Shown piece by piece: positions 1,570 through 26,529 of a stretch of DNA of 32,095 nt (position 1 is its first letter; each line of letters begins with the position of its first letter). The stretch comes from Acidimicrobiales bacterium. Its GTDB lineage: Bacteria; Actinomycetota; Acidimicrobiia; Acidimicrobiales; VFJN01. The position numbers and the translations under genes are program-made. The notes beneath the pieces were generated by a model. The model did not search any database. It had not been told where the DNA came from and saw only the letters and a program-made list of their open reading frames with translations. The stretch spans positions 1 through 32,095 of the forward strand of contig JAUXRW010000013.1 in NCBI GenBank assembly GCA_030681555.1, given 5' to 3'.

Positions 1570-3438
1570 ATGACCGACATCCACGAGCACACCGGCCACC
1601 AGCGCAGCCCCATCGACAAGGAGGCGTTGCGCCGCAAGTACAGGGAAGAGCGCGACAAGCGCTCACGACCAGACGGGATCGCACAGTACCGCCGGCTCAC
1701 CGGCGATCTGCTGCACGACCCGTACCTGCCCGTGCAGCCGCGTGAGCCTCGCACCGATCACGTGACCTTCACGTTCGTCGGCGGCGGGTTCGCCGGGCTC
1801 GTCACCGGGGCCCGGCTCAAGGAGGCGGGCGTCGACGATGTGCGCATCATCGACAAGGCCGGCGACTTCGGCGGCACCTGGTACTGGAACCGCTACCCGG
1901 GCGCGCAGTGCGACACGGCCTCGTTCGTGTACATGCCCCTGCTCGAAGAGACCGGCCACATGCCGACGGAGAAGTACGCGCACGCGCCGGAGATCCTCGA
2001 GCACTGCCAGCGCATCGGGAAGCAGTACGGCCTCTACGACGACGCCCTGTTCCACACCGAGGTCACCGGGCTGACGTGGGACGACGATGCCCAGGTGTGG
2101 GTGATGACCACCGACCGCGGCGACGAGTTCACGTCGCAGTTCGTCGGCCTGGGTACCGGCCCGCTGCACGTCGCCAAGCTCCCCGACATCCCGGGCATCG
2201 ACAGCTTCCGCGGGCACTCGTTCCACACGAGCCGCTGGGACTACGCCTACACCGGCGGGGGTCCCGAGGGTGAGCCGATGCGTCGCCTTGCTGACAAGCG
2301 GGTCGCCATCATCGGCACGGGCGCTACCGCCGTGCAGTGCATCCCGCACCTGGCCCGCGACGCCGAGGAGCTGTACGTTTTCCAGCGCACGCCATCATCG
2401 GTCGACGTACGCGGCAACGTGCCCACCGATCCTACCTGGTTCGCCTCCATCGCCCAGCCGGGCTGGCAGCAGAGGTGGCTGGAGAACTTCACCGCCAACA
2501 CGATGGGCGGATTCGGCGCCGGCGGCGACGACGACGACCTGATCCAAGACGGCTGGACCGACATCGCCCGACGGGTGAAGGCCAAGGTCTTCGAGCGCAT
2601 GTCCTCGGGCGGCGAGTTCAGCGGCGACACGCTGCTGGACGCCTTCGAGGACGCCGACTTCGAGAAGATGGAGGAGATCCGCGCCCGGGTCGACGCAGTG
2701 GTCGAGGACCCCGCGACCGCGGCAGCCCTCAAATCCTGGTACGGGCAGCTGTGCAAGCGTCCCTGCTTCCACGACGAGTACCTCCAGGCGTTCAACCGCC
2801 CGGGCGCGACCCTCGTCGACACAGACGGCAAAGGTGTCGAGCGGATCACCGAGCGCGGCGTCGTGGCCGGAGGCCGGGAGTATGAGGTCGACTGCATCGT
2901 GTGGGCGACCGGCTTCGAGGTCAGCACCGAGTTCACGTCCCGGGCCGGGTTCGACCTGGTGGGCCGAGGGGGGGTCCGTCTCAGCGAGTACTGGGCCAGC
3001 GGCATGCGTACCCTGCACGGCAGCCACGTGCTCGGCTTCCCCAACGCGTTCCTCGTGCAGCTCACCCAGGGCTCCAACCACATCGCCAACGTCCCCCACA
3101 ACATGAGCGAGACGGGGACCACCATCGCCAAGATCGTCGGGCACGCCGTTGCCCAGGGCCACGCCACCGTGGAGGTGAGCGCGGAAGCCGAGGAGGCCTG
3201 GATCCAGCGCCTGCTGAGTGGCGGGACGCCGCTGGACGGCCTGGGCAGCGGGGGCCGGTCGTTGCAGATCCCCGGTTCGCTGGAGTGCACGCCTGGCTAC
3301 TACAACAACGAAGGCCAGGCACCGACCGCGGCGGCTCGCTACAACTTCCTCGGCTTCCCCGGCGGACCGCTCGCGTTCTTCCAGTACATCGACCGCTGGC
3401 GTCGCTCAGGGGAGTTCGAGGGAGTCGAGTTCCGATGA
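1570..3438 (+). CDS. Baeyer-Villiger monooxygenase (long N-terminal type)
   Basis: A 622-aa flavin- and NADPH-dependent type I Baeyer-Villiger monooxygenase that should convert a ketone to an ester or lactone with O2. The FAD Rossmann motif is GGGFAGL at about residues 71-77, followed by [16 protein letters not shown] at about 98-113. The family fingerprint FxGxxxHxxxW(P/D) is present as [12 protein letters not shown] near residue 213. The NADPH Rossmann motif is GTGATAVQ near 248, and the ATG motif is VWATGFE near 450. About 65 residues precede the first Rossmann fold, including a charged KYREERDKR segment, as in the subgroup of longer BVMOs that act on bulky or large-ring ketones. The ATG start follows a GCAGGCAGG stretch. 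The gene is 17 bp behind the diiron protein. The substrate cannot be read from sequence; neighbours suggest steroid- or terpenoid-like ketones. Confidence 0.93.
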
Positions 3439-11667: not shown

Positions 11668-12873
11668 TCATGGGCGCGGTGCGACCGTCGGCGTGAGCGT
11701 GATGCCGGCGGCGTCGGCCTCTCGCTGCTGGATGGCCAGCAGCTGCACCGGATCGCTCGCTGCGGCGGCCGAGTCCTCCGGGCCCAACAGCTGGATAATC
11801 CCGGCCGGAGGGGTACCGCCCAGGTCGATCGTGACCCGCTGCGCCAGTGTGGGCGCCACGATCCGGTCGATCCGCAGGCCCGAGCCATAGATCGGGACGC
11901 CGAAGCGAGGCTGGAACCCTGGGAAGAAGACCGTGCCTCCGCCCGCTGACAGCCAGAAGTTGCCGCCCTCGAAAGTGAGGCCGAACCGGGTGATCATGAG
12001 CGGCGTCAGCGCGATCGTCTCCCGAACCCGCCCCGGTCGATCCGCGAGGTTGCTCAGCGTCACGTCGAGGCCTTCCAGCACGTCTCGCACGTCGGGGCGG
12101 ATATCGGCGATGAACCCGGATGCCGATTCGCCGAGGTCGGCGCCGGTGGCGAGGATCGAGGCCAGCTCGTCGGTGCGGGCGGCGAGCACCGTACCGAGCC
12201 GATCGAAGCCGACGATGCTGCGATCGAGAGCTGTGCGGTGCTCGTCGAGGGTGGAGACCAGCTGGGCTGCGTTGGCGGTCAGGGTGCCGAGCTCGGTTCG
12301 ACGCGCCGCGAGGACCTCCGAGATGTCGGCCGCGTCGGCAAGCAGGCTCTGCAGGTCTGCCTCGTGTCCGATGATGCCCGATGCCCCGTCGAGAAAGCGT
12401 TCGAGCTGTGTCGGGTCGACCCGGGAAAGCAGCCGGTCGGCGCTCCCGAGCAACGTGTCGAGGGACCGGGGGACGCCGACCCGCTCGAGGGGGATCGTCG
12501 AGCCATTCGGGTCGCCCACCGGTGTGGTCGGGAGAGCGGGGGCCAGGTCCACGTAGGGCTCGCCCAGTGCGCTCTTCTGGCGGATGTCCGCACGGAGCAC
12601 CTTCGCCATGGGACCGGCCGGGGTCAGCTCCAGCTCGATCCGGACCCCCCCGGGCACCAGATCGCTCGAGGTGACGCTGCCGGCCCGGACGCCCAGGTAG
12701 GTGACCTCAGCTCCCGGGAGCGCCCCCGCTGCGGTCGGGGCGATGAGGCTGATCCGGGTCGGCTTCGCGAACGGGTCGATTTCAGCCAGCCCGACCACCG
12801 CCCAGGCCACGGCCACGAAGCCGACGACGGTGATGAGCACCACGTTGACGATCTGGCGCAGGGTGAGCTTCAA
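11668..12873 (-). CDS. mceF: Mce family protein, sixth of operon (MceF position)
   Basis: A 401-aa Mce protein: one N-terminal membrane helix (VVLITVVGFVAVAWAVVGL, about 11-29), an MlaD/Mce beta-barrel domain at about 38-115 (LPGAEVTYLGVRAGSV; SALGEPYVDLAP), then a long helical region with repeated Leu/Ala heptads (about 135-270) that in the family builds the hydrophobic tunnel carrying lipid across the periplasm-like space. The C-terminal part contains GGNFWLSAGGGTVFFPGF. The letter is assigned by position, not by sequence. It is the last gene of the operon and converges with a Mce-associated gene. The ATG overlaps the mceE stop by 4 nt. Confidence 0.88.
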   Translation of the reverse strand: MKLTLRQIVNVVLITVVGFVAVAWAVVGLAEIDPFAKPTRISLIAPTAAGALPGAEVTYLGVRAGSVTSSDLVPGGVRIELELTPAGPMAKVLRADIRQKSALGEPYVDLAPALPTTPVGDPNGSTIPLERVGVPRSLDTLLGSADRLLSRVDPTQLERFLDGASGIIGHEADLQSLLADAADISEVLAARRTELGTLTANAAQLVSTLDEHRTALDRSIVGFDRLGTVLAARTDELASILATGADLGESASGFIADIRPDVRDVLEGLDVTLSNLADRPGRVRETIALTPLMITRFGLTFEGGNFWLSAGGGTVFFPGFQPRFGVPIYGSGLRIDRIVAPTLAQRVTIDLGGTPPAGIIQLLGPEDSAAAASDPVQLLAIQQREADAAGITLTPTVAPRP

Positions 12874-14051
12874 GGTTGCCCTCCTGAACCGCTGCGCTGC
12901 ACGACGCCGAGCAGCATGTCGACCATCCCGGAGCCGGATGCCGCGCGTGACCCGGCGTGGCCGTTGGCGCTGCCCGCCCCGATGTCGATGTTGCCTGTGC
13001 CCAGCGGGTCGTCCAGGTTCGGGGCAGTAACGCCCGTGACGCTGATCTGGCCATCACGTTCGCGCCCGTTCGGGCCCGCCTCCGGTTCGGCACACCGATC
13101 TGGGTTGGTCTCCACCGTGGCCAGCTCGGGTGTGAGTGGGAAGAGGAAGTTCAGGTAGTCGCCGTCAGAGGCGCAGGACCAGCCCCGGTTGAAGCCGGGG
13201 AGCCCCGTGACCACCGACCGCAGGTCATCGAGGTTGGCCACTACCTCCCCCAGCAGCGGGACAATCTGGTCGAAGGCCCGAACCATGGACACCTGGTTGC
13301 GCTCCAGGAGCCCCGACAGCTCGGCCGAGAGTCGCTGGACCTGGTCGATCACGGCGGGGATCTGGTGGTTCGAGCGAGCCAGGGCCTCAGCGCCGGCCGC
13401 GAACCGGTCGATGGCCACACCGTACCGGTCCGTGTCGGGAGCCAGCCGGGCGGCGAGCGTGTCCACGGCCTCGATGGCGCGACCCAGGTCCTCACGGGAC
13501 TGCGATAAGGCGTTGGCTGCGCCCGCCGACGCATCGAAGAAGCGCTGAAGGCGCGTGGGGTCGCTGCCAACACCGCGGTCGGCGGCAGCTAGGACACGGT
13601 TGAGGTTGTCGACGTTGACCTCGGCGGTGAGCTGGCCGCCCAGCTCGACCAAGGTCTCCAGCTCCTGGCCGCGGCTCGTCCGCTCGAGGGGAATCGTGGC
13701 CCCGCGGGCCAGGCGTCCGGTTCCTTCGGGGCGCAGCTCGATGAACTGCTCGCCCAAGAGGCTGGTCTGGCGGACCTCTGCGGTGGTGGCCGCTGGCAGC
13801 GCTCGGCCGTCATCGACCTCGATGTCGACGATAGCGACGAGCCCGTCGAGCTCGATTGCCGTGACCCGACCGACGATCACGTCGTCGAGGCGAACGTCGT
13901 TGCGCGCGACCAGGCCGGTCGCGTCGGCCAGTTCCACGCGGTACGGCACGGTGTGGTCAGCCAGGCTGTTCAGGATGAAGGGCGTCGCCGCGATTGCCGC
14001 GGCGACGAAGAACCCCACCCGCACCAGGGTCACCACCCGACGTCGGTTCAC
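12870..14051 (-). CDS. mceE: Mce family protein, fifth of operon (MceE position)
   Basis: A 393-aa Mce protein with an N-terminal helix (VGFFVAAAIAATPFILNSLA), MlaD domain at about 37-110 (RNDVRLDDVIVGRVTAIEL; SLLGEQFIELRPEG), helical tunnel region to about 285, then NRGWSCASDGDYLNFLFPL and a Gly/Ser/Ala-rich tail. In mycobacteria the fifth Mce protein is usually a lipoprotein with a lipobox Cys near the N-terminus; no Cys occurs in the first 40 residues here, so this one is anchored by its helix. Start and stop overlap both neighbours by 4 nt. Confidence 0.88.
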   Translation of the reverse strand: MNRRRVVTLVRVGFFVAAAIAATPFILNSLADHTVPYRVELADATGLVARNDVRLDDVIVGRVTAIELDGLVAIVDIEVDDGRALPAATTAEVRQTSLLGEQFIELRPEGTGRLARGATIPLERTSRGQELETLVELGGQLTAEVNVDNLNRVLAAADRGVGSDPTRLQRFFDASAGAANALSQSREDLGRAIEAVDTLAARLAPDTDRYGVAIDRFAAGAEALARSNHQIPAVIDQVQRLSAELSGLLERNQVSMVRAFDQIVPLLGEVVANLDDLRSVVTGLPGFNRGWSCASDGDYLNFLFPLTPELATVETNPDRCAEPEAGPNGRERDGQISVTGVTAPNLDDPLGTGNIDIGAGSANGHAGSRAASGSGMVDMLLGVVQRSGSGGQP

Positions 14052-15244
14052 GGCCCCGCCTCGCCGTCGCCGTCGGCGTCGAGCGCGATCGGCCCGATCT
14101 GCGTGTCCGGGAGCAACGGGCCCGTTCCGAGGTGGGGCGTCAGGTCGAACTGCTCGGGCACGGCCTCATCGGCGACTCCGTCGGTGAAGTCGACCTCGGG
14201 GACGACACGGTTGTCGCCCGTCTCGGAGCCGGGTCCGCCCCGAGAGTTCATGTTCGGGATGAAGGGTGCGAAGAACGTCCCGGTGACCTGCGGCTGGAGG
14301 AACCAGCGACCGTTGTCCTGGTGGATGGCCCGAGCGAAGCCGTAGCTGGCCAGCGGCAAGTACTCGATGACCTGCTTCCAGTCCTCCTCGTGCGCAGTGA
14401 GGATCTCTCCGGTCCGCGCGAGCACGTCGACCGACGAGGTCAGCCCGGCTCGCTGACCCCTCGTGAACTCGGTCAGCTCACCCAACATCCGGTCGAGGCC
14501 CTCCACGGCGCCGTCGAGGGCGCCGTCCTGGGCGACCAGTGCCTCGGTCACGACGGCGCCGCGCTCGAGGAGGGAGGCGATCCGGTCGTCGCGGGTCGCC
14601 AGGTTCGCGAGCACCCGGTCGGTCGCCACCAAGGTGTCGTCGAGGCGGTCCAGGTTGGCCTGCAAGGCCGCGCCCGCTCCCGAGAGCTCGGTCACGAACC
14701 CGGCCAGCACATCGCGATCACCACCGAAGGCCGTGGCCAGGCGCTCGACCACGCCCTGCACGGCCACGGGATCGAGCTCCTCGGTCACGCGGGTGGCCTC
14801 ATCGAGGACGTCGGAGATCTCCGCCGGAACCACCGTGCGGTCAAGCGGGATCGTCGCACCGTCAGCCAGCTGGGCTCCCTCCCCGGTCCACGTGGGACCC
14901 AGCTCGACGAAGCGCTCGCCGATCAGCGAGCGGAGGCGGAGCGTGGCGGTGGCGTCGGCCACGAGGGGCACGTCGTCGACGTGCATCGTCACCTCCACCC
15001 GGTCGGCCAGCGGCTCCACGTCGGTCACCATGCCGGCCTCGAGCCCGTCGACGTAGACCCGCGACTGCGGGTAGAGCCCGACGGCCCGGGGGAACTCGGC
15101 CACGACGGTGAAGCGACCTGGAGAGAACGGGTCGGACACGTCAACGGCAATGGCCTGACCGGCCAGGCTCAGGGTTGAGATCCCGGTCGCCAAGACGACG
15201 ACGGCGACCACGAGGCGTCGGACGGTGGATGTGTCGGGGGTCAT
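14048..15244 (-). CDS. mceD: Mce family protein, fourth of operon (MceD position)
   Basis: A 398-aa Mce protein. An N-terminal hydrophobic helix (LVVAVVVLATGISTLSLAG) is followed by the MlaD domain at about 44-120 (YPQSRVYVDGLEAGMVTDVEPL; SLIGERFVELGPTW) and a long helical segment (about 135-275). The C-terminal region contains YGFARAIHQDNGRWFLQPQVTG and an acidic tail. It forms one of the six stacked subunits expected in a heterohexameric Mce tunnel. ATG overlaps the mceC stop by 4 nt. Confidence 0.88.
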   Translation of the reverse strand: MTPDTSTVRRLVVAVVVLATGISTLSLAGQAIAVDVSDPFSPGRFTVVAEFPRAVGLYPQSRVYVDGLEAGMVTDVEPLADRVEVTMHVDDVPLVADATATLRLRSLIGERFVELGPTWTGEGAQLADGATIPLDRTVVPAEISDVLDEATRVTEELDPVAVQGVVERLATAFGGDRDVLAGFVTELSGAGAALQANLDRLDDTLVATDRVLANLATRDDRIASLLERGAVVTEALVAQDGALDGAVEGLDRMLGELTEFTRGQRAGLTSSVDVLARTGEILTAHEEDWKQVIEYLPLASYGFARAIHQDNGRWFLQPQVTGTFFAPFIPNMNSRGGPGSETGDNRVVPEVDFTDGVADEAVPEQFDLTPHLGTGPLLPDTQIGPIALDADGDGEAGP

Positions 15245-16392
15245 CGTCCGTACCCTTCGGGGGGCGGAATGGTGCGGTCGTCGCCGGTGCGAACGGTGGC
15301 CACGCCGGGCACCACCAGCTCGTCGGGCAGGAGCATGAGCGGGGTCTGTCCCGGATCCAGCTGGAGGCGGGGCAGCCCTCCCGTCTCCCCTGGTTCACCG
15401 CTCGTGCGGCTCCCCAGATCGACCGGATTGGTGAGGAAGGGGCTGGCGACGACGCCGACGATGTACACGTTCACCCACGACCCTTCCCGGGTCGTGTTGT
15501 AGAACCGCTCCGCCACGATCGGCAGCGAACCCAACGCGAGGTCGATGCGATGTCGCTGGGCGTCGAGCACCTGCGTGGTCTCGACGAGACCCGACACGAA
15601 GCGGTCCAGGGTGGCGCCGTTGCGGTCGAGCAGCGGGGTGACGGTGGACGAGAGGTCGCTCACCCCGGCCACGAGCGACCGCAGCTCGATCTGGCGTGCG
15701 GCCAGGACGCCGAGGACCACGTCGACCCCGTCGATGGCGGTGTTCACTTCACCTTCACGAGCCTGGAGGGCGCCGGACAGGCGAGCCGTGCCGTCCAGAA
15801 GACGCTGCAGATCGGCTTCGCTGTCGGCGACGCTCGCCGCGAGCATCTCCATATCGCCGAAGAGCGAGCGGAGCTGTTCGGCGCGCCCGTCGTCGAGGAC
15901 GTCGACGGTGGAGCGCATCACGGCGTTGATCGAGTCGACGTCCGTGCTCTCGATCACCGGTTCAGCGGAGTTGAGGAGGGTATCCACGTCGGTGGCCACT
16001 TCTGTGTGCTCGAGTGGGATCTTGGCCCCCTGGCGCAGAGGATCGCCGGCGCCGGCGTCGGCCAGGTTGAGGTACTTCCGGCCCAGCAACGTCCGCAGCC
16101 GGATCGATGCTCGAACCGACTGGGACACCTCGACGCCTTGTTGGAGACGAAGCTTGGCCACGACCGTCCCCTCCTCGGGACGACGGTCGATGGCGGCGAC
16201 CGACCCCACGTTCACCCCGGCGACCCTCACCGGGTCACCGGTCTCGAGACCCGACGCGGAACTGAACTCGGCCGTCACGGTGTAGGTCTTCTCGAAGAGG
16301 TGGAGGCCACCGACGGAGAAGGTGAAGGCCGTCAAGGCCAGCGTCAGGAGTACACCGATGATGCCGCAGCGGCGCAGGTTCCGAAACGTCAT
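15241..16392 (-). CDS. mceC: Mce family protein, third of operon (MceC position)
   Basis: A 383-aa Mce protein with membrane helix GIIGVLLTLALTAFTFSVGG (about 10-29), MlaD domain at about 36-112 (TGDPVRVAGVNVGSVAAI; TLLGRKYLNLADAG), helical tunnel region to about 290, then EGSWVNVYIVGVVASPF, a motif shared with the MceB-position protein (QGSWFQVYARGVGI). The tail is Pro/Gly-rich. 4-nt overlaps link it to mceB and mceD. Confidence 0.88.
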   Translation of the reverse strand: MTFRNLRRCGIIGVLLTLALTAFTFSVGGLHLFEKTYTVTAEFSSASGLETGDPVRVAGVNVGSVAAIDRRPEEGTVVAKLRLQQGVEVSQSVRASIRLRTLLGRKYLNLADAGAGDPLRQGAKIPLEHTEVATDVDTLLNSAEPVIESTDVDSINAVMRSTVDVLDDGRAEQLRSLFGDMEMLAASVADSEADLQRLLDGTARLSGALQAREGEVNTAIDGVDVVLGVLAARQIELRSLVAGVSDLSSTVTPLLDRNGATLDRFVSGLVETTQVLDAQRHRIDLALGSLPIVAERFYNTTREGSWVNVYIVGVVASPFLTNPVDLGSRTSGEPGETGGLPRLQLDPGQTPLMLLPDELVVPGVATVRTGDDRTIPPPEGYGR

Positions 16393-17591
16393 CCCGCACC
16401 TCCGAGGAGGCCCTCGAGCAGGGCTGCGAGCCCCGATGAGCCCTCTGGGGAGGTCGTGTGGTGGGGGTTGGCCGGGTTGACCGTGAAAGGACCGGCCGAG
16501 GTCTCGGGGATCGGCGGCAGGGGGAAGTACGGGGTGCCGAGGAGCGGGGGTGTGGAACTCGTGTCATCCACGCCGGCGTCGTTGTAGTTCGGTCCCACCA
16601 CGGGTTCCGACACCGAGCTGTTCACGATGCCGACCCCTCGTGCGTAGACCTGGAACCAGCTTCCCTGGCTGGTGGCGCGGGCGATGGCGGCGACTCCGGA
16701 GGGCAGGGTGCGAAGGCCCTCCCCGAGAGCCTCCTTGTTGACCGCCAGCTCGTCGAGCACTTGAGTGGAGCTGGCCAGGATGGCGTCGAGGTCCGCCTCA
16801 CTGGCCTCGAGGACCGAGTCGAGCACCGCCACCAGCTGGTCGGCACTCGTGAGCGTCGCACCGAGCCCGTCGGCCTGGCCGGCCAGCACCTCCGCTGTGG
16901 AGGCGAAGCTGATGAGGAAGCGCTCCACCTCCTCGTCGTGCTCGGCGATGCCCTGGACCAGCTGGGAGAGGTTGGTCACGGAGCGCTGGATTGCGGCGGC
17001 CCGGGGGGCCAGTGTGGCGACGAGGTCGGAACCGTCGCCGATGGCCTGGCCGATGGTGTCCTCGCGGCCCTCGAGGGCGGCCGCAAGCGTGGCCATGACC
17101 CGGTTGAGGGTGGCGGTGTCGAGCTTGCCGACCAAGGGCTCGGTGTTGTTGAGGAGCATGCTGAGATCGGCTGCCGCCTGAGTGCGGTCGGTTCCCAGGT
17201 GGGTGCCGTCGACGAGGGCGGGGCCGTCGGTTGAAGCGCCTACCGGTGGCAGCACCTCGACGACCCGCTGGCCGAGGAGGTTCCGCCAGCGCACCTCGAA
17301 GGTCGACCCGGCGGGGAGCGGGTGGCGCTCGTCGATGCTCATCGACACCACGGCCACCCCTCGCTGCACCTTCACGCTGCTGACCTTCCCGACGCGCACC
17401 CCGGCCAGGTTGACCGCGTCGCCGGGGACCAGCCCGGTGGCGTCGGTGAACTCGCCGGCCACCGAATACGTGTCCGACAGCGGCCCCGCGGCACCCCCGA
17501 GCTGACCGATCTGCACGGCAAGGAACCCCAGGCAGGCAAGACCGGCCGTGGCCAGCACGGCAAGGCGCGTGTAGAGGCCGGCGGGGCTCAT
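16389..17591 (-). CDS. mceB: Mce family protein, second of operon (MceB position)
   Basis: A 400-aa Mce protein. Helix LAVLATAGLACLGFLAVQIG at about 10-29, MlaD domain at about 40-115 (PGDAVNLAGVRVGKVSSVKV; NLLGQRVVEVLPP), helical region with many Leu/Ala heptads to about 300, then QGSWFQVYARGVGI and a Pro/Ser/Thr-rich C-terminus ending in a small hydrophobic LAALLEGLLGG. Same architecture as its neighbours; joined to mceA and mceC by 4-nt overlaps. Confidence 0.88.
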   Translation of the reverse strand: MSPAGLYTRLAVLATAGLACLGFLAVQIGQLGGAAGPLSDTYSVAGEFTDATGLVPGDAVNLAGVRVGKVSSVKVQRGVAVVSMSIDERHPLPAGSTFEVRWRNLLGQRVVEVLPPVGASTDGPALVDGTHLGTDRTQAAADLSMLLNNTEPLVGKLDTATLNRVMATLAAALEGREDTIGQAIGDGSDLVATLAPRAAAIQRSVTNLSQLVQGIAEHDEEVERFLISFASTAEVLAGQADGLGATLTSADQLVAVLDSVLEASEADLDAILASSTQVLDELAVNKEALGEGLRTLPSGVAAIARATSQGSWFQVYARGVGIVNSSVSEPVVGPNYNDAGVDDTSSTPPLLGTPYFPLPPIPETSAGPFTVNPANPHHTTSPEGSSGLAALLEGLLGGAG

Positions 17592-18712
17592 CGCTCCGAC
17601 CCGCCGAGGAGGCTCCCGAGCAGCTCCCCGAGGCCGAAGCTGCTCTCGGCGGGTCCGAGGTTGAGGGAGGGGGTGGGGAGCTCGAGGCCTTCGATGACGA
17701 TGTCGGGCCCGATGCCGGCGCCGCCCTGCGCCTCGCCGAAGGAACCGGGGGCGTCGAGGACGCTCCCGGGGTTCAGCACGACGAAGTTGGCGACCGGCGC
17801 CCGGAACGATCCGGTGGACGTGGCCGCGGCCAGCCCGTTCACGAACCGGGGTGCTCCGTCGAGCAGGGCGGTGATTGCCCCCGGGTACTCCGAGACGATG
17901 TCGAGCACCGTGTAGCCGTCGTCGAGGACCCCCTGGAGCACCTCACCGTTCTCGGTGAGCAGTGCAGCGGCTTCGGCGGACAGCGCGGTGGTGCCGTCCA
18001 GGAACCTCGCCAGCTCCGGCTGCTCGTCCACCACCAGGTCGGCCAGATCGCCGAAGTGCTCAGCGGCGCGGGCCAGCTCCGTGGCGCGGGCCTCCACCGT
18101 GCCGGCGACCCCGGGGATGGACCTGAACAGCATGCTGAGGTCGTCCTTGCGGCGAGTGAGCTCCTCGAGAACCGGCGGGAGGGACTCGAGGACGGAGTGG
18201 ATGTCGCTGCCCCTGCCCTCGACGCCTTCGGCGAAGGAGGCCAGGGTGTTGGACACCTGGACAGGATCGACGGACCGGAGGACGGGGACGAGCTCGTCGA
18301 GGAGCGTCTGGACCTCCGTGGCCGCGGCCGTGCGCTCCAGCGGGATCACCGCACCGTCGGCAAGCGCAGCACCGTGTTCGGGCGCCGGCTGCAGCTCGAC
18401 GAACTTGTCGCCGAAGAGGGTCTTGGGCACGAGGCGGGCGGTGGTGTCGGCGGCCACCCTGGCATCCGGATCGACTCGCAACGTGTAGCGGACCACGGCA
18501 CCGGCCTCGTCGAGCTCGATGCCGGCGATGCGGCCCACCGGGACGCCGCGCACCCGCACCTCGTCGCCCTTGCGCACGTTGAGTCCGGCGCGCTCGAACT
18601 CGGCGATCACCCGGATCGACGCGGCGGCGGGCTGGTGCAGATAGGCCGCCGCCACGCTCGCCACCAGGAGGGCCCCCACCGCCTTGGCGAGGATCGGCGC
18701 GACGCGGCTCAT
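17588..18712 (-). CDS. mceA: Mce family protein, first of operon (MceA position)
   Basis: A 374-aa Mce protein with short N-terminal helix (AVGALLVASVAAAYL), MlaD domain at about 32-110 (RKGDEVRVRGVPVGRIAGIEL; TLFGDKFVELQPAP), helical tunnel region to about 280, and a C-terminal tail ending LGLGELLGSLLGG-like (FGLGELLGSLLGGSER). It follows the two permease genes directly (ATG overlaps the yrbEB stop), the standard order in actinobacterial mce operons. Confidence 0.9.
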   Translation of the reverse strand: MSRVAPILAKAVGALLVASVAAAYLHQPAAASIRVIAEFERAGLNVRKGDEVRVRGVPVGRIAGIELDEAGAVVRYTLRVDPDARVAADTTARLVPKTLFGDKFVELQPAPEHGAALADGAVIPLERTAAATEVQTLLDELVPVLRSVDPVQVSNTLASFAEGVEGRGSDIHSVLESLPPVLEELTRRKDDLSMLFRSIPGVAGTVEARATELARAAEHFGDLADLVVDEQPELARFLDGTTALSAEAAALLTENGEVLQGVLDDGYTVLDIVSEYPGAITALLDGAPRFVNGLAAATSTGSFRAPVANFVVLNPGSVLDAPGSFGEAQGGAGIGPDIVIEGLELPTPSLNLGPAESSFGLGELLGSLLGGSER

Positions 18713-19620
18713 CCGGAGAACCTCACCGTGTCGACGCTGCCCCAGAAGAGGTACGAGAGCAGGAAGTTGACCACGAAGATGGTCGTGATCGAGAGGCGGA
18801 CCGCTCGCCCTACAGCCTGCCCGACGGCCTCGGGCCCGCCCGACACCCGGAACCCGTAGGCACAGTGGACGAAGGTGATGATCACGATGAACACGAGGAT
18901 CTTTATCACGCTGTACACGATGTCGATGCGCGGCAGGTAGAGGTCGAAGTACTGGTCGTACACGCCCGGCGCGATGCCGAAGAAGTGGACCGAGGTGAGC
19001 TTGGTGGTCAGGAGCTGGATCCAGAGCCCGATGATGTAGAGCGGCAGCACGGTCACGAACGACGCGATGAGTCGGGTGGACACCAGGAAGCGCAGCGCGG
19101 GGACGCTCATGACCTCGAGGGCGTCGATCTCCTCGGAGATCCGCATGGCTCCCAGCTCGGCCGTGAAGTTCGCGCCGATCTGGGCGGCGAAGATGATGGC
19201 CGCCGCCAGCGGGGTGATCTCCCGGACGTTCGCGAAGGCCGACAGGAACCCGATCAGGTCCTCGGCGCCGATGAGCTCCAAGCCCTTGACACCTTCGAGG
19301 CTCACCTGGACGCCGATCACGCCAGTCATGAACACGACGACGACCACCGCCCCGGCACCGACCACCAGGGCACCGGCGCCGACTGCCACGTCGGAGATGA
19401 GCGACACGATCTGGGCCCGATACTTGAGCGCGGCGGGGATGTTGACCGTCGCCCGCCAGGAGACATCGAGAATCATCCGAAGCGTTCGCAGCGGTGCCGC
19501 GACCGGCCCCAGGGCCTCACCGATGACGGACGGCAGTTCCGAGGTCAGGGCGCGTCGGGGGGGTGGAGGACCCTGCGGGTGGCCGTCCGTCTCGTCGATG
19601 GGTGCGGCGGTGGCGGTCAT
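18709..19620 (-). CDS. yrbEB: YrbEB, MlaE-family permease of the Mce transporter
   Basis: A 303-aa integral membrane protein of the MlaE/YrbE family. The ATG at 19620 overlaps the yrbEA stop as ATGA; the open frame upstream is not used. A cytoplasmic N-terminus (to about residue 85) precedes hydrophobic helices including VVVVVFMTGVIGVQVS, PLAAAIIFAAQIGANFTAEL, LIASFVTVLPLYIIGLWIQL, ILVFIVIITFVHCAYG and TTIFVVNFLLSYLFW. The cytoplasmic coupling segment RISEEIDALEVM, conserved in the family and thought to contact the ATPase, is present. With YrbEA it forms the inner-membrane channel. The partner ATPase (MceG/Mkl type) is not in this window. Confidence 0.93.
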   Translation of the reverse strand: MTATAAPIDETDGHPQGPPPPRRALTSELPSVIGEALGPVAAPLRTLRMILDVSWRATVNIPAALKYRAQIVSLISDVAVGAGALVVGAGAVVVVVFMTGVIGVQVSLEGVKGLELIGAEDLIGFLSAFANVREITPLAAAIIFAAQIGANFTAELGAMRISEEIDALEVMSVPALRFLVSTRLIASFVTVLPLYIIGLWIQLLTTKLTSVHFFGIAPGVYDQYFDLYLPRIDIVYSVIKILVFIVIITFVHCAYGFRVSGGPEAVGQAVGRAVRLSITTIFVVNFLLSYLFWGSVDTVRFSG

Positions 19621-20402
19621 TGGATGGCGTCCGGGACCAGGGCGAGGTAGCCGAAGGTGAGGATCATGTTCACGACGACCAGAGCGAGGATCGTGAGCAC
19701 GACCCCGTTGTTGACCGCCTTGCCGACCCCGCCGGGGCCGCCCTTGGCATAGAGGCCCTTCCACGCGGAGATGAGGGCCGCGACGATCCCGAAGACGAAC
19801 CCCTTCACGAGGGCCAGGTAGAGGTCGGGCATGCGGGCGAGGACCGTGAAGCCGTCGAGGAACGCGCCGCCGTTCGAGCCCTTGATGACGACCGCGTAGA
19901 AGTACCCCCCGGCGATCCCACCCACGATGACCATCCCGGTCAGGAGGAGAGCGGAGATCGCACAGCCGAGCACCCGGGGCACGACCAGGCGGTGGATCGG
20001 ATCGATGGACATCACCTGCATGGCTGCGATCTCATCACGTACCGTGCGTGCGCCGAGGTCGGCGGTGATGGCGGTGCCGCCCGCCGCGGCCAACATGAAC
20101 GTCGTCCCGAGCGGGCCGGCTTCTCGGACGATGGCAAGGACCATCGCGGCACCCTGGGCCGACTCGGCCCCGAACTGACGGGTGATGTTGTACACCTGCA
20201 GGCCGATGACCAGGCCGAACGACAGCGTCAGCAGCAAGGCGGGGAACAGCGTCACCGAGCACACGAACCAGGTCTGCCGGGCGACCTCCTGGGGCCGCCA
20301 GGGGCGCCTGGGCAGCCGCACGGCCACATCCATGGCGAGCGCGAAGAACCGACCCGTCTCGTCGACCCACCCTCCTATCCGCTGCGCCAGCGCACCCCCC
20401 AT
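19617..20402 (-). CDS. yrbEA: YrbEA, MlaE-family permease of the Mce transporter
   Basis: A 261-aa integral membrane protein. Motifs: LTLSFGLVIGLQVYNITRQFGAE, REAGPLGTTFMLAAAGGTAI, the coupling segment VRDEIAAMQVMSIDP, then GFVFGIVAALISAWKGLYAKGG and VVVNMILTFGYLAL. Compared with YrbEB the coupling helix has EIAAMQVM in place of EIDALEVM, the usual kind of A/B difference. It is the first gene of the eight-gene transporter unit; GGGGGGATC precedes the ATG. The substrate of this Mce system is inferred only from neighbours to be a sterol- or lipid-like molecule. Confidence 0.93.
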   Translation of the reverse strand: MGGALAQRIGGWVDETGRFFALAMDVAVRLPRRPWRPQEVARQTWFVCSVTLFPALLLTLSFGLVIGLQVYNITRQFGAESAQGAAMVLAIVREAGPLGTTFMLAAAGGTAITADLGARTVRDEIAAMQVMSIDPIHRLVVPRVLGCAISALLLTGMVIVGGIAGGYFYAVVIKGSNGGAFLDGFTVLARMPDLYLALVKGFVFGIVAALISAWKGLYAKGGPGGVGKAVNNGVVLTILALVVVNMILTFGYLALVPDAIQ

Positions 20403-20502
20403 GATCCCCCCGGTCCGCCTTGTCTACCCAGCGACGGCGTCACAGTACTGATTCGCTGGACCGCTGGGACATCCTGCTTACAAGTCGGGAAAGTCGCGCC
20501 GC
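20403..20502 (-). promoter_or_regulatory. Intergenic region before yrbEA with possible -10
   Basis: The 100 bp between the thiolase stop and yrbEA contain TACTGT (20447-20442, - strand), identical to the -10 of the aldehyde dehydrogenase and SDR promoters. No good -35 is seen at the right distance, so transcription may instead, or also, run in from the thiolase gene. Confidence 0.3.
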
Positions 20503-21645
20503 TCACTCCCGCTGCAGGACGTGGATGACGCAGACGGAGCCGGCACCCATCATGTGGGCCAGGCCGGTTCGAGCCCCTTCGACCTGGCAGCCGTCCGCTT
20601 CGCCCCGAAGCTGGCGGGTGACGTCGAAGATCTGGGCCAGCCCCGTCGGTCCGCCGGGGTGGCCCCGGGCGGTCAAGCCCCCGTCGGTCGAGAACGGGAT
20701 CCGACCTCCGAGCGCCGTGGCCCCCTCGGCGACCAGCTTGTCGCCCTCGCCATCACCGCAGACACCGAGCAGCTCGTAGTACATCAGCTCCTCGATGGGG
20801 AAGGCGTCGTGCACGTGCACCAGGTCCAGATCGGCCGGCCCGAGCCCCGCTTGCTCGTACGCAGCGCGCGATGTCGTTCGCGTCAGCTCCCCCGGTCCGA
20901 CCACGGCGCCCATGAACACGTGTCCGTCGGTGTAGCGCTCGGTCTCCTGGGCGGAGGCGGCGACCCGGACGAGGGGCCGGCTCGCGGCTACCCGCTCGGC
21001 GACCGACCGGGAGGCAACGATGGCACACGCCGCACCGGCCCCCGCGGCGCAGGCCATCTTCGAGGTGTGCGGGTAGGCGATCATCCTCGATGCGAGCACC
21101 TCCTCCACGGTGACCTCGTGGTCCGCCCGTCGCTGGGCCAAGGGGTTGTGCCTCGCGTGGTTCCAGTTCTTGGCCGCGATCTGCGCGAACGTCTCGACGG
21201 TGGTCCCGTAGTCGTGCATCCGGCGCGTGGCCCACATGGCGAAGAAGGCAGCCGGCAGCATCACAGTCTCCACGCCCGGCTTGAACAGGCCCGGGCCGCC
21301 CATGCGGTTCATGTCGTCGAAGCCGAGGGCCATCGCCACCTCGGCATGACCACCCGCGACCTGCAGCACGGCCTCGCGAAACGCCGAGGAGCCCGTGGCA
21401 GAGGCGTTCTCCACGTGGACGATCGGCAGACCGGTCAGACCGAAGTCCTTGGCCACGGTTATCCCCGCCAGGAGGCCACCCCCGCCGATGTACCCGTTGT
21501 AGAGCACCCCCACGTCGTCGAAGCGGATTCCGGCATCGGCGAGCGCGGCCACACCGGCCTCGAAGGCCAGGTCCCCGACCGGCACCTCGTGCTGACCGAA
21601 CGGCGTCATGCCGACACCGATGACATAGACGTCATCCAGCATCAT
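20503..21645 (-). CDS. SCP2-thiolase-like protein (putative retro-aldolase)
   Basis: A 380-aa thiolase-fold protein of the SCP-x/lipid-transfer (Ltp) group. The C-terminal motif GGLTARGHPGGPTGLAQI and HVHDAFPIEELMYYELLG are family-typical. The nucleophile position, normally Cys in a NNNCATGS-like motif, reads VENASATGSS with Ser82, so ordinary thiolysis is unlikely. Ltp2-type members paired with a DUF35 protein act as retro-aldolases removing the end of a steroid side chain, and this gene starts inside the stop of a DUF35 gene (ATGA overlap), matching that pairing. The Tyr residues in MYYELLG could take part. Substrate and reaction are inferred from family and context. Confidence 0.88.
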   Translation of the reverse strand: MMLDDVYVIGVGMTPFGQHEVPVGDLAFEAGVAALADAGIRFDDVGVLYNGYIGGGGLLAGITVAKDFGLTGLPIVHVENASATGSSAFREAVLQVAGGHAEVAMALGFDDMNRMGGPGLFKPGVETVMLPAAFFAMWATRRMHDYGTTVETFAQIAAKNWNHARHNPLAQRRADHEVTVEEVLASRMIAYPHTSKMACAAGAGAACAIVASRSVAERVAASRPLVRVAASAQETERYTDGHVFMGAVVGPGELTRTTSRAAYEQAGLGPADLDLVHVHDAFPIEELMYYELLGVCGDGEGDKLVAEGATALGGRIPFSTDGGLTARGHPGGPTGLAQIFDVTRQLRGEADGCQVEGARTGLAHMMGAGSVCVIHVLQRE

Positions 21646-22073
21646 GCGGCACCCGCGGCGGCGAGGGGCGCGAACCGGAACGTCAAGAGATCGGTGCCTT
21701 CCTCGTCCTGCATGACCGGATACAGCTCGAGGGCGACGGGCATGCCGATCTCCCAGTCACCCATGTCGCCACCGAGGACGGTCTGGACGCGCACCCCTTC
21801 GGGGAGGTCCACCTGGCCCACCCCGTGGCCCTCGAGGTCGCCCATGCGGTTCTTGCCCATCCAGGGAGACACGACGAAGGTCCATGAGTACAGGACGCCC
21901 TCTGGCGACAGTTCGACGTCGACGACGGCCTCCTGGCTGACCGGGCACCGACGGCGCCGAGGGAAGAAGTGGAGGTCAGCGGTCGGGCTGTAGGACCCGA
22001 GGAGGCGAGGTGGGCCGTCTCCATCGGCAGGCACGGTGAAGTAGCCCTGTTCCAATGCACGGCTCGTTGCCAT
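21642..22073 (-). CDS. DUF35 OB-fold protein, partner of the thiolase-like protein
   Basis: A 143-aa protein from ATG 22073, chosen because GAGGAGGA lies 5-6 nt upstream; an earlier ATG at 22124 has no ribosome site. It contains LHFFPRRRRCPVSQ followed by an OB-fold-like beta region (VLYSWTFV, GVGQVDLPEGVRVQTVL, MPVALELYPV, TDLLTFRFAPL). DUF35 proteins usually carry an N-terminal rubredoxin-like zinc ribbon with four Cys; only one Cys remains here (CPVSQ), so the metal site is lost. DUF35 domains bind acyl-CoA and partner SCP2-thiolases or aldolases, consistent with the downstream overlap. The SDR is transcribed divergently. Confidence 0.82.
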   Translation of the reverse strand: MATSRALEQGYFTVPADGDGPPRLLGSYSPTADLHFFPRRRRCPVSQEAVVDVELSPEGVLYSWTFVVSPWMGKNRMGDLEGHGVGQVDLPEGVRVQTVLGGDMGDWEIGMPVALELYPVMQDEEGTDLLTFRFAPLAAAGAA

Positions 22074-22124
22074 CGATGTCCTCCTCGGCTCCCCTGCCTG
22101 ATCGCCGCCTGGCTTCGAGTCCAT

Positions 22125-22155
22125 TTGACGACGAGAGACGCTGATCGCTTACTGT
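22125..22155 (+). promoter_or_regulatory. Promoter of the SDR gene
   Basis: TTGACG (22125-22130) and TACTGT (22150-22155) are 19 bp apart, slightly long. GTCTCACAGGGG follows, nearly the same string as after the -10 at 374. The 130-bp region 22074-22203 must also hold the promoter of the divergent DUF35 gene, which I could not resolve. Confidence 0.45.
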
Positions 22156-22203
22156 CTCACAGGGGAGATCGTCGAGTCGAGCCGGCGCCGCACCGCGGGC
22201 CGG

Positions 22204-23109
22204 ATGGCGGACATCGTGGACAACTTTGGTTACGACGGGAAGGTCGCCCACATCACCGGCGCCGGGAACGGGTTGGGGCGCGAGCACGCGCTCTTGCTGG
22301 CCGGCCGAGGCGCCCAGGTCGTGGTCAACGACCTCGGTGGCTCGGTGGCGGGCGACGGCGCCGACAGCGGTCCCGCGCAGCAGGTGGCCGACGAGATCGA
22401 GGCAGCCGGCGGCGTGGCGGTGGCGAGCACCGCCTCGGTGTCGACCCGGGCGGGGGGGGAGGACATCGTTCGCACCGCCGTGGATGCCTTCGGGCGCGTG
22501 GACATCGTCATCAACAACGCAGGCATCCTCCGGGACAAGGCGTTCCACAACCTGACCGACGACCTCCTGGATCCGGTGCTCGACGTCCACCTCCGAGGGG
22601 CCTTCTACGTGACCCAGCCGGCCTGGAAGCTGATGCGCGACCAGGGCTACGGACGAGTGGTCAACACGTCGTCGGCGGCGGGCATCTTCGGCAACTTCGG
22701 ACAGACCAACTACGGAGCCGCGAAGATGGGGCTCGTCGGATTCACCCGCGTCCTGGCCCAGGAAGGCGCCAAGTACGGCATCAAGGCCAACGTGATCGCC
22801 CCGGGCGCCAAGACCCGGATGACCGAGGACCTCATGGGCGCGATGTCCGACAAGCTGGACCCGCGCCTCGTCAGCCCCCTCGTGGCCTTCCTCGCGCACG
22901 AGGACTGCCCCGTGTCGGGTCAGGCCTTCTCGGTCGGTGGCGGGCGGGTGGCGCAGATCTTCATCGGCGTGACCCAGGGGATCTTCGATGCCGAGCTGTC
23001 GGTGGAGACGGTCCGGGACCGCTGGGAGGAGCTGTGCGACCAGACCGGCTACGTCGTCCCCACCAGCGCGACCGACGAGCTCGGGCTGCTCTTCCCGCAC
23101 CTCAGCTGA
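22204..23109 (+). CDS. SDR oxidoreductase, 17-beta-HSD type 4-like
   Basis: A 301-aa classical-type short-chain dehydrogenase resembling the dehydrogenase domain of peroxisomal multifunctional enzyme 2 (HSD17B4) and mycobacterial Hsd4A. NAD(P) binding: TGAGNGLGREHA (19-30) with VVVNDLGG after the second strand; NNAGILRD (105-112); catalytic Ser157, Tyr170 and Lys174 (NTSSAAG, NYGAAK). The insertion typical of the HSD17B4 group (GDGADSGPAQQVADEIEAAG) is present. Members oxidise 3-hydroxyacyl-CoA intermediates or 17-beta-hydroxysteroids, which suits a side-chain or sterol pathway with the divergent thiolase/DUF35 pair. The ATG has only a weak ribosome site. A truncated acyl-CoA synthetase ORF follows 10 nt after the stop. 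Confidence 0.9.
   Translation: MADIVDNFGYDGKVAHITGAGNGLGREHALLLAGRGAQVVVNDLGGSVAGDGADSGPAQQVADEIEAAGGVAVASTASVSTRAGGEDIVRTAVDAFGRVDIVINNAGILRDKAFHNLTDDLLDPVLDVHLRGAFYVTQPAWKLMRDQGYGRVVNTSSAAGIFGNFGQTNYGAAKMGLVGFTRVLAQEGAKYGIKANVIAPGAKTRMTEDLMGAMSDKLDPRLVSPLVAFLAHEDCPVSGQAFSVGGGRVAQIFIGVTQGIFDAELSVETVRDRWEELCDQTGYVVPTSATDELGLLFPHLS

Positions 23110-24810: not shown

Positions 24811-26529
<1,719 letters not shown>

Follow-up and report, generated by a model that had tools for sequence, protein, structure and literature searches.

A thiolase with serine at the nucleophile position and a DUF35 partner without a zinc ribbon: a possible BbsAB-like pair from an Acidimicrobiales bacterium

Background

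In textbooks, thiolases are defined by a cysteine that becomes acylated. The window analysed here, a stretch of 32,095 nucleotides (contig JAUXRW010000013.1 of Acidimicrobiales assembly GCA_030681555.1), encodes a thiolase with serine at that position, next to a DUF35 protein with a single cysteine, and so raises the question of what reaction such a pair could catalyse. The original prediction for this locus was a retro-aldolase of the Ltp2/DUF35 type or a variant with new chemistry. Both proposals are weighed below against a thiolase reaction and several other alternatives.

The gene pair

Both open reading frames of the pair, and their coordinates, are exactly as first described (Table 1). 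The stop codon of the DUF35 gene and the start codon of the thiolase gene share four nucleotides (ATGA), and a GAGGAG stretch precedes the DUF35 start at 22073. Translational coupling, originally given as a fact, is plausible because of these two features; the overlap itself is certain. A misread frame, a misread start or a sequencing error was ruled out as the source of the unusual residues, as the same residues are found in independent genomes.

Table 1. Features of the window around the thiolase-DUF35 pair
Feature	Coordinates	Strand	Evidence
Six-ORF run read as an Mce set (three of six by profile, other three by position)	11668..18712	-	
Mce ORF	11668..12873	-	Mce4_CUP1/MlaD
Mce ORF	16389..17591	-	TIGR00996
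Mce ORF	17588..18712	-	Mce4_CUP1/MlaD
YrbE/MlaE permease B	18709..19620	-	Pfam MlaE 201 bits
YrbE/MlaE permease A, begins 100 nt past thiolase stop	19617..20402	-	Pfam MlaE 202.8 bits
Ser-type thiolase subunit P0001, 380 aa	20503..21645	-	Pfam Thiolase_C_1 121.8 bits, Thiolase_N 38.1 bits
His329 of GHP motif (Ltp2 Tyr344 position)	20659..20661	-	Alignment
Ala281 of HDAF (Cys in HDCF SCP2-thiolases; Ala also in BbsB)	20803..20805	-	Alignment
His279 of HDAF motif (Tyr in Ltp2/Sal)	20809..20811	-	Alignment
Ser82 codon TCT, site of thiolase nucleophilic Cys	21400..21402	-	HMMER alignments, codon readout
DUF35/OB-fold partner P0002, 143 aa, one of four zinc Cys	21642..22073	-	Pfam OB_ChsH2_C 35.8 bits
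Cys43, sole Cys of DUF35 partner, third zinc position	21945..21947	-	Alignment
Divergent SDR, peroxisomal MFE-2/17beta-HSD4 type, probable (3R)-hydroxyacyl-CoA dehydrogenase	22204..23109	+	PDB 2et6 E 1.2e-126, 1gz6 1.2e-77

Serine 82 and the active site

HMMER alignments place Ser82, in the motif VENASATGSS, on the nucleophilic cysteine of BbsB (7pxp, E 3e-63) and of zebrafish SCP2-thiolase (6hsj, 7e-60), as had been predicted. The thiolase has cysteines at positions 199, 207, 296, 353 and 372, and none of them is in register with the nucleophile, which disposes of the possibility that the catalytic cysteine had been overlooked elsewhere. The CxG site of classical thiolases falls on Met365 when aligned by eye.

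Conservation was read from an alignment of 55 rows (A1), with a Ser group of 40 rows picked by Ser82 and Asn80, a Cys group of 14 rows picked by Cys82, and one other row. His279, Asp280, Ala281, Phe282 and His329 are present in all 40 Ser rows, which span several phyla, so that both the HDxF and the GHP histidines are found throughout, the window protein included. In the Cys group, His279 and His329 are each found in 13 rows and Cys281 in 11. Both catalytic cysteines of the SCP2 type are absent from the window protein, with Ser82 in place of the nucleophile and Ala281 in place of the HDCF cysteine; HDAF alone is no bar to thiolase activity, as BbsB and 7yvy combine it with a cysteine. One relative outside A1 (L098) has an HDAY motif. 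Among the positions that are near-invariant in the Ser group (39–40 of 40) and differ in most Cys rows are R141, R142, H144, R172, E236, H242, Y289 and D321. Three cysteines were tried as a relocated catalytic residue and rejected: C296 and C372 are frequent both among the 40 Ser rows (38 each) and among the 14 Cys rows (11 and 9), C199 is present in 37 Ser and 5 Cys rows, and none is at any active-site register known to us.

Serine is found at position 82 in all 44 distinct rows with at least 60% identity to the window protein (itself included; one row, L062, was aligned in its N-terminal part only) and in all five rows with 50–60% identity, or 49 of 49 rows at or above 50%. It is found in 4 of 6 rows with 40–50% identity and in 1 of 26 below 40%, this last being an Ltp2-like row with a YDCF motif. 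The count left out 35 locus ids with re-fetched copies, five identical rows and four rows lacking position 82. In eight distant rows with a YDxF/Y motif, where the alignment is unsure, the position is occupied by T (four), G (three) or S (one). The Ser82 codons of 52 Ser rows (one gene counted twice) are TCG (28), TCC (13), TCA (9), TCT (1) and AGC (1); because the third base varies freely and one row uses the other codon family, Ser82 looks as if it is held by selection.

Two alternatives bear directly on these residues. The protein could be an inactive pseudo-thiolase that binds acyl-CoA, or that regulates or scaffolds other enzymes: the nucleophilic cysteine is lost, and other thiolase-like proteins, e.g. 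MsTLP1, are of unknown role (PMC3406046). This is improbable, as conservation across phyla extends to His279, Asp280 and His329 and to most of the GHPGGPTG loop, in contrast to drifting pseudoenzymes. The second alternative is a retro-Claisen enzyme, hydrolase or decarboxylase that forms no acyl-enzyme; the two histidines would polarise a 3-oxoacyl-CoA or malonyl-type CoA, Ser82 would contribute only a hydrogen bond, and CoA or water would attack directly. The retention of both histidines with the loss of both SCP2-type cysteines is in keeping with this, as is the slow decarboxylation of malonyl-CoA by TbSLP that is described in PMC12329534. The presence of Ser rather than A, G or T in every row at or above 50% identity points instead to a reactive hydroxyl, and the alternative is unlikely, if to be taken more seriously than any other.

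The DUF35 partner

The DUF35 protein keeps one of the usual four zinc cysteines, as predicted: its only cysteine, C43, aligns with the third of the four in 6esq_E. The C-terminal OB fold of DUF35 (PF01796) is present (35.8 bits, cut-off 27.1), while the N-terminal zinc ribbon is absent. No full ribbon is hidden in a misread N-terminus, because the longer start at 22124 contributes no cysteine.

A C4 ribbon is found in 11 of the 14 DUF35 places in this genome. The three without one are the window pair, a Ser-type paralogue pair on contig C45 (thiolases 73% and DUF35 proteins 57% identical to the window pair) and a chimeric frame on contig C84. The last (L137, G000:C84:7900-8620) is a single frame that begins as an Ltp2-like thiolase and ends in a DUF35 OB fold, and is either a deletion or an assembly chimera.

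A DUF35 gene was detected in 42 of the 48 Ser-type loci surveyed below. For L098, with its zinc state scored 'no', no DUF35 was detected (L105). Four Ser-type rows (L057, L073, L074 and L097) have a full C4 zinc ribbon in DUF35. Two plasmids carry short forms: a 97-aa DUF35-like protein with no Pfam match and no ribbon cysteines, which aligns with DUF35, is encoded ahead of a Ser-thiolase in Diaphorobacter (L125:8700-8993), and a short DUF35-like protein without ribbon cysteines is encoded ahead of another in Rhodococcus (L127, upstream of 6001).

Phylogeny and distribution

In a tree of 71 rows, 45 Ser rows group together (support 100/99), and in a thinned tree of 55 rows, including three added plasmid rows, 32 do so (100/100). 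Columns 82 and 281 were excluded from both. The ribbon-less Ser rows are the sister group of the four C4-ribbon rows in the 71-row tree (100/98, 41 rows); the same group has moderate support in the thinned tree (85/76, 28 rows). Within the Ser part of the 71-row tree there is a single change of zinc state. Because of this sister relationship, the Cys-to-Ser and HDCF-to-HDAF changes probably preceded the loss of zinc ligands. One Ser-type row of 41% identity (L079) groups weakly with a Cys row, and a single Ser clade is compatible with the data (p-AU 0.40). This gene (G005:C26:81567-82679) has a zinc-ribbon motif upstream and may represent an independent Cys-to-Ser change.

A scan of named genomes found a relative at 51 loci, which belong to Mycobacterium, Acidimicrobiia, Gammaproteobacteria, Alphaproteobacteria, Dehalococcoidia, one 'Anaerolinea' and 'Deltaproteobacteria'. 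At E<=1e-100, matches were found in 4 of 60 near genomes and 3 of 396 genomes drawn from across the phylum (own genome included in both); among the near genomes, the same-genus (n=3) and same-family (n=3) ones had none. Identity to the window protein is 63–78% for most of the relatives from other classes and phyla, which together with the sparse distribution suggests horizontal spread. A plasmid search (E<=1e-60) gave three records; two are Ser-type (Diaphorobacter and Rhodococcus) and one, Sphingomonas pJE1, is Cys-type.

In one genome (G002:C6; L121 and L064), a Cys-type thiolase with an upstream zinc-ribbon motif lies ca. 7 kb from a Ser-type pair. In addition, 13,134 bases are 100% identical among six records labelled as different Mycobacterium species or strains (L016, L017, L019, L020, L021 and L052); the stretch carries an IS110-type gene, and is either a recent mobile element or cross-contamination.

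As far as the sequences go, Ser82 and the loss of zinc cysteines are neither decay nor chance. Both are common to a conserved clade, to which the 'variant with new chemistry' of the original prediction would fit well, and this clade is probably an uncharacterised working variant of a textbook enzyme.

Predicted structures and known relatives

AlphaFold2 models were built from alignments of the window and loci proteins (pLDDT 91.2 for the thiolase, 88.7 for DUF35). Pfam profiles and the model both give the window protein a thiolase fold. The best Foldseek match is BbsB (7pxp_D, TM 0.90), and the best VIA matches are tied between 6hsp_B (Z 55.8, rmsd 2.1, 367 residues aligned) and 7pyt_B (Z 55.4, rmsd 1.8, 366 aligned), against Z 46.3 for Ltp2 (rmsd 2.3, 359 aligned) and 45.0 for Sal (rmsd 2.5, 364 aligned). 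The DUF35 model is closest to BbsA (7pxp_B, Z 14.7, rmsd 3.4, 130 aligned), so the protein is predicted to retain its two-part fold even though the zinc cysteines are missing. In these models both subunits are nearest to BbsAB, with the thiolase tied with SCP2-thiolase.

BbsAB, the benzoylsuccinyl-CoA thiolase of the anaerobic toluene pathway (7pxp, 7pyt), resembles the window pair in having separate DUF35 and thiolase proteins, in its HDAF and GHP motifs, and in the predicted fold of the DUF35 subunit encoded by the adjacent gene. The SDR that makes its substrate is BbsCD, and the window SDR also matches BbsD (7pcs, 2.3e-33). However, BbsB has a nucleophilic cysteine and BbsA a zinc finger, and the window pair has neither. 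Identity to BbsAB is 34–36% over the fold alignments, and scores with the NCBIfam equivalog models for BbsB and BbsA (228 and 33 bits) are under the cut-offs of 750 and 250. SCP2-thiolase/SCPx (zebrafish 6hsp, 6hsj) shares the fold and the HDxF and GHP histidines with the window thiolase, but has a cysteine nucleophile and the HDCF cysteine; we know of no DUF35 partner for it. In peroxisomes SCP2-thiolase acts after MFE-2, the dehydrogenase of which resembles the window SDR.

Gene neighbourhood

Co-transcription with the downstream Mce genes, part of the original prediction, is plausible since the genes are on the same strand with a gap of 100 nt and no terminator- or promoter-like site; none was found in a scan of 19500-22600 for both.

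Gene content within ca. 6 kb was compared between 48 Ser loci, the window among them (four near-copies were dropped and five identical Mycobacterium loci left out), and 19 control thiolase loci, taken from 10 genomes in which a Ser-type gene is also present. An SDR similar to that of the window (at least 180 bits) is found in 14 of the 48 and none of the 19 (Fisher one-sided 0.005, which overstates independence because the loci still include close relatives). It was not seen within the stretch in the other 34 Ser loci, with contig ends accounting for some of these. The window SDR clusters with the SDRs that adjoin Ser-type pairs in other genomes. An MFE-2/MaoC hydratase is found in 6 Ser loci and no control. 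ACAD genes (16 of 48 vs 6 of 19) and AMP-ligase genes (12 of 48 vs 4 of 19) are not enriched near Ser loci. Apart from the window, none of the 48 Ser loci has YrbE genes within 6 kb; when seven stretches were followed further out, one more Mce run came to light, ca. 10 kb off in L103.

Several loci hold sets of beta-oxidation type: ACADs, thiolase, DUF35, SDR and hydratase (L101); a YrbE-Mce run followed by DUF35, thiolase, SDR, ligase and ACAD (L103); and ligase, ACAD, FadJ and Ser-thiolase, with a DUF35-like match (E 9e-9) overlapping the end of the FadJ frame (L060). On the plasmid of Diaphorobacter sp. HDW4B the order is SDR, the 97-aa protein, Ser-thiolase and MaoC hydratase, then TetR, CaiB, ACAD and ligase. 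No second thiolase-like gene was found within the stretch in 17 of 19 loci examined with five thiolase-type queries. The idea that each cassette has the Ser gene as its sole thiolase-like gene holds in part only, as TLP1-like genes are also found in L045, L051 and L054 and Ltp2-like genes in L045 and L054.

FadA5 is a thiolase, and Hsd4A of Mycolicibacterium is presumably related to the window SDR. Hsd4A makes the 22-oxo CoA ester within the branch to which fadA5 belongs (PMC10398937), and this supports the view that an enzyme beside an SDR of this type is supplied with a 3-oxoacyl-CoA.

A biosynthetic or priming acyltransferase similar to DpsC or PhlABC, with the acyl group moved via Ser82, would be a different use of the same residue. 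In PMC12664062, DpsC, a thiolase-fold protein with Ser in place of Cys, self-acylates on the serine of S118-H297-D302. It differs from the window thiolase in being FabH-like, with a Ser-His-Asp triad and a carrier-protein partner. PhlABC (5m3k) is a DUF35-thiolase and a Friedel-Crafts acyltransferase, but its Cys88 is essential, and the C88S form of PhlC is inactive, as stated in PMC6392133. No carrier-protein or polyketide genes are found among the annotated neighbours (a part of all), and the gene context is catabolic, which makes a role of this kind as improbable as a pseudo-thiolase.

Two further features of the surroundings were recorded. Flavin monooxygenases of Baeyer-Villiger-like type are encoded at 1570-3438 (+) and 24811-26490 (-) of the window, scoring 718 and 203 bits against pentalenolactone D synthase PtlE (cut-off 1100); they hint at catabolism of cyclic ketones or terpenoids nearby. 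A sterol substrate is not claimed: the extradiol dioxygenase model TIGR03213, which we took as a marker of sterol-ring degradation, has two matches of 19.9 bits (cut-off 366). Separately, in a mycobacterial stretch, a gene for an R2-like ligand-binding oxidase (R2lox; L019:4431-5372) lies directly ahead of a DUF35/Ser-thiolase pair, a lead to the role of R2lox; among the literature matches listed for R2lox, nothing was on point.

Comparison with the Ltp2 and Sal aldolases

Ltp2-ChsH2 and Sal-Shy (6ok1, 9myr) belong to the same superfamily as the window pair, likewise have a DUF35 partner, and have a thiolase fold that does not use a nucleophilic cysteine. These points favour an aldolase of this kind, acting on 3-hydroxyacyl-CoA with His279 in place of the catalytic tyrosine. 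According to PMC12329534, catalysis by both enzymes is independent of the nucleophilic cysteine, the catalytic residues are Tyr294 (YDHF) and Tyr344 in Ltp2 and Tyr302 and Cys304 (YDCY) in Sal, and the zinc finger is C4 or C3H1. The YDHF and GEAYI motifs of Ltp2 fall on HDAF and RGHP of the window protein, with a spacing of 50 residues in both. The tyrosine base of YDxF/Y is thus replaced by His279, and the acid (Tyr344 of Ltp2, Cys304 of Sal) by His329 and Ala281, so that the positions of the Ltp2 tyrosines hold the two thiolase histidines and the predicted Ltp2-type aldolase is not borne out. In the Ltp2 and Sal systems, moreover, DUF35 is within a MaoC-domain protein, whereas the window DUF35 is a single domain.

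The distribution of genes adds to this. The genome encodes separate Ltp2-like proteins with YDCF or YDSF motifs, including proteins nearer Ltp2 (L012; 6ok1, 3e-77) and nearer 4u4e (L008); an Ltp2-like gene is close to the Ser-type pair in L045 and L054; the YDxF rows separate in the trees with 100/100 support; and an aldolase would have no need of a ketone-forming dehydrogenase as its neighbour. A P450 gene, which would favour an aldolase, is found in 7 of the 48 Ser loci and 3 of the 19 controls. Overall, an aldolase of the Ltp2/Sal kind is distinctly unlikely.

Three clusters (L045:5980-9480, L051:519-3998 and L054:5977-12468) combine a Ser-type thiolase with a TLP1-like protein (PF18313) whose YSCF motif recalls YDCY of Sal, and those in L045 and L054 also encode the Ltp2-like protein (YDCF in L054). 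TLP1-type proteins might be aldolases.

A proposed reaction

Sequence register, conservation, clade, predicted fold and gene context support a BbsAB-like reading. The explanation tentatively preferred, and the most probable of those considered, is a thiolase-DUF35 heteromer of BbsAB architecture that cleaves 3-oxoacyl-CoA in beta-oxidation with Ser82-His329 as acyl acceptor; complex, reaction and substrate are what we infer. The MFE-2-type (3R)-hydroxyacyl-CoA dehydrogenase would supply the 3-oxoacyl-CoA, and its cleavage would close a round of beta-oxidation of a hydrophobic acyl-CoA, which may be imported by the neighbouring Mce system, a link that we infer. His329 would activate Ser82 to attack the 3-keto carbon, an oxyanion hole with His279 would stabilise the departing acyl-CoA enolate, and CoA (or water) would resolve the acyl-Ser ester. 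DUF35 would be a docking and substrate-wall subunit. C-C cleavage of 3-oxoacyl-CoA is the firmer half of this proposal, and Ser82 as covalent acyl acceptor the weaker half.

For serine as acyl acceptor on a thiolase fold, the self-acylating DpsC (PMC12664062) sets a precedent. Serine is not a drop-in replacement for cysteine, because the PhlC mutant made with this change is dead; since a bare swap can kill activity, co-adapted residues are expected. Among the matches listed in the open-licence literature (titles and abstract starts), none describes a Ser-type thiolase with DUF35.

Conclusions

On a wider and more doubtful view, which is possible rather than probable, the Ser clade is a natural serine thiolase, a cross-phylum family that cleaves 3-oxoacyl-CoA via an acyl-Ser oxyester, and in which DUF35 later lost its zinc site and in a few lineages became a mini-domain of ca. 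97 residues without ribbon cysteines. A clade that has fixed serine across phyla, in some genomes at the thiolase slot of beta-oxidation sets, would make the needs of an oxyester active site testable. Zinc ligands seem to have been lost step by step, which suggests that DUF35 can do without its metal. Labels assigned by similarity alone, such as thiolase, lipid-transfer protein or Ltp2-like aldolase, may be wrong for the members of this clade.
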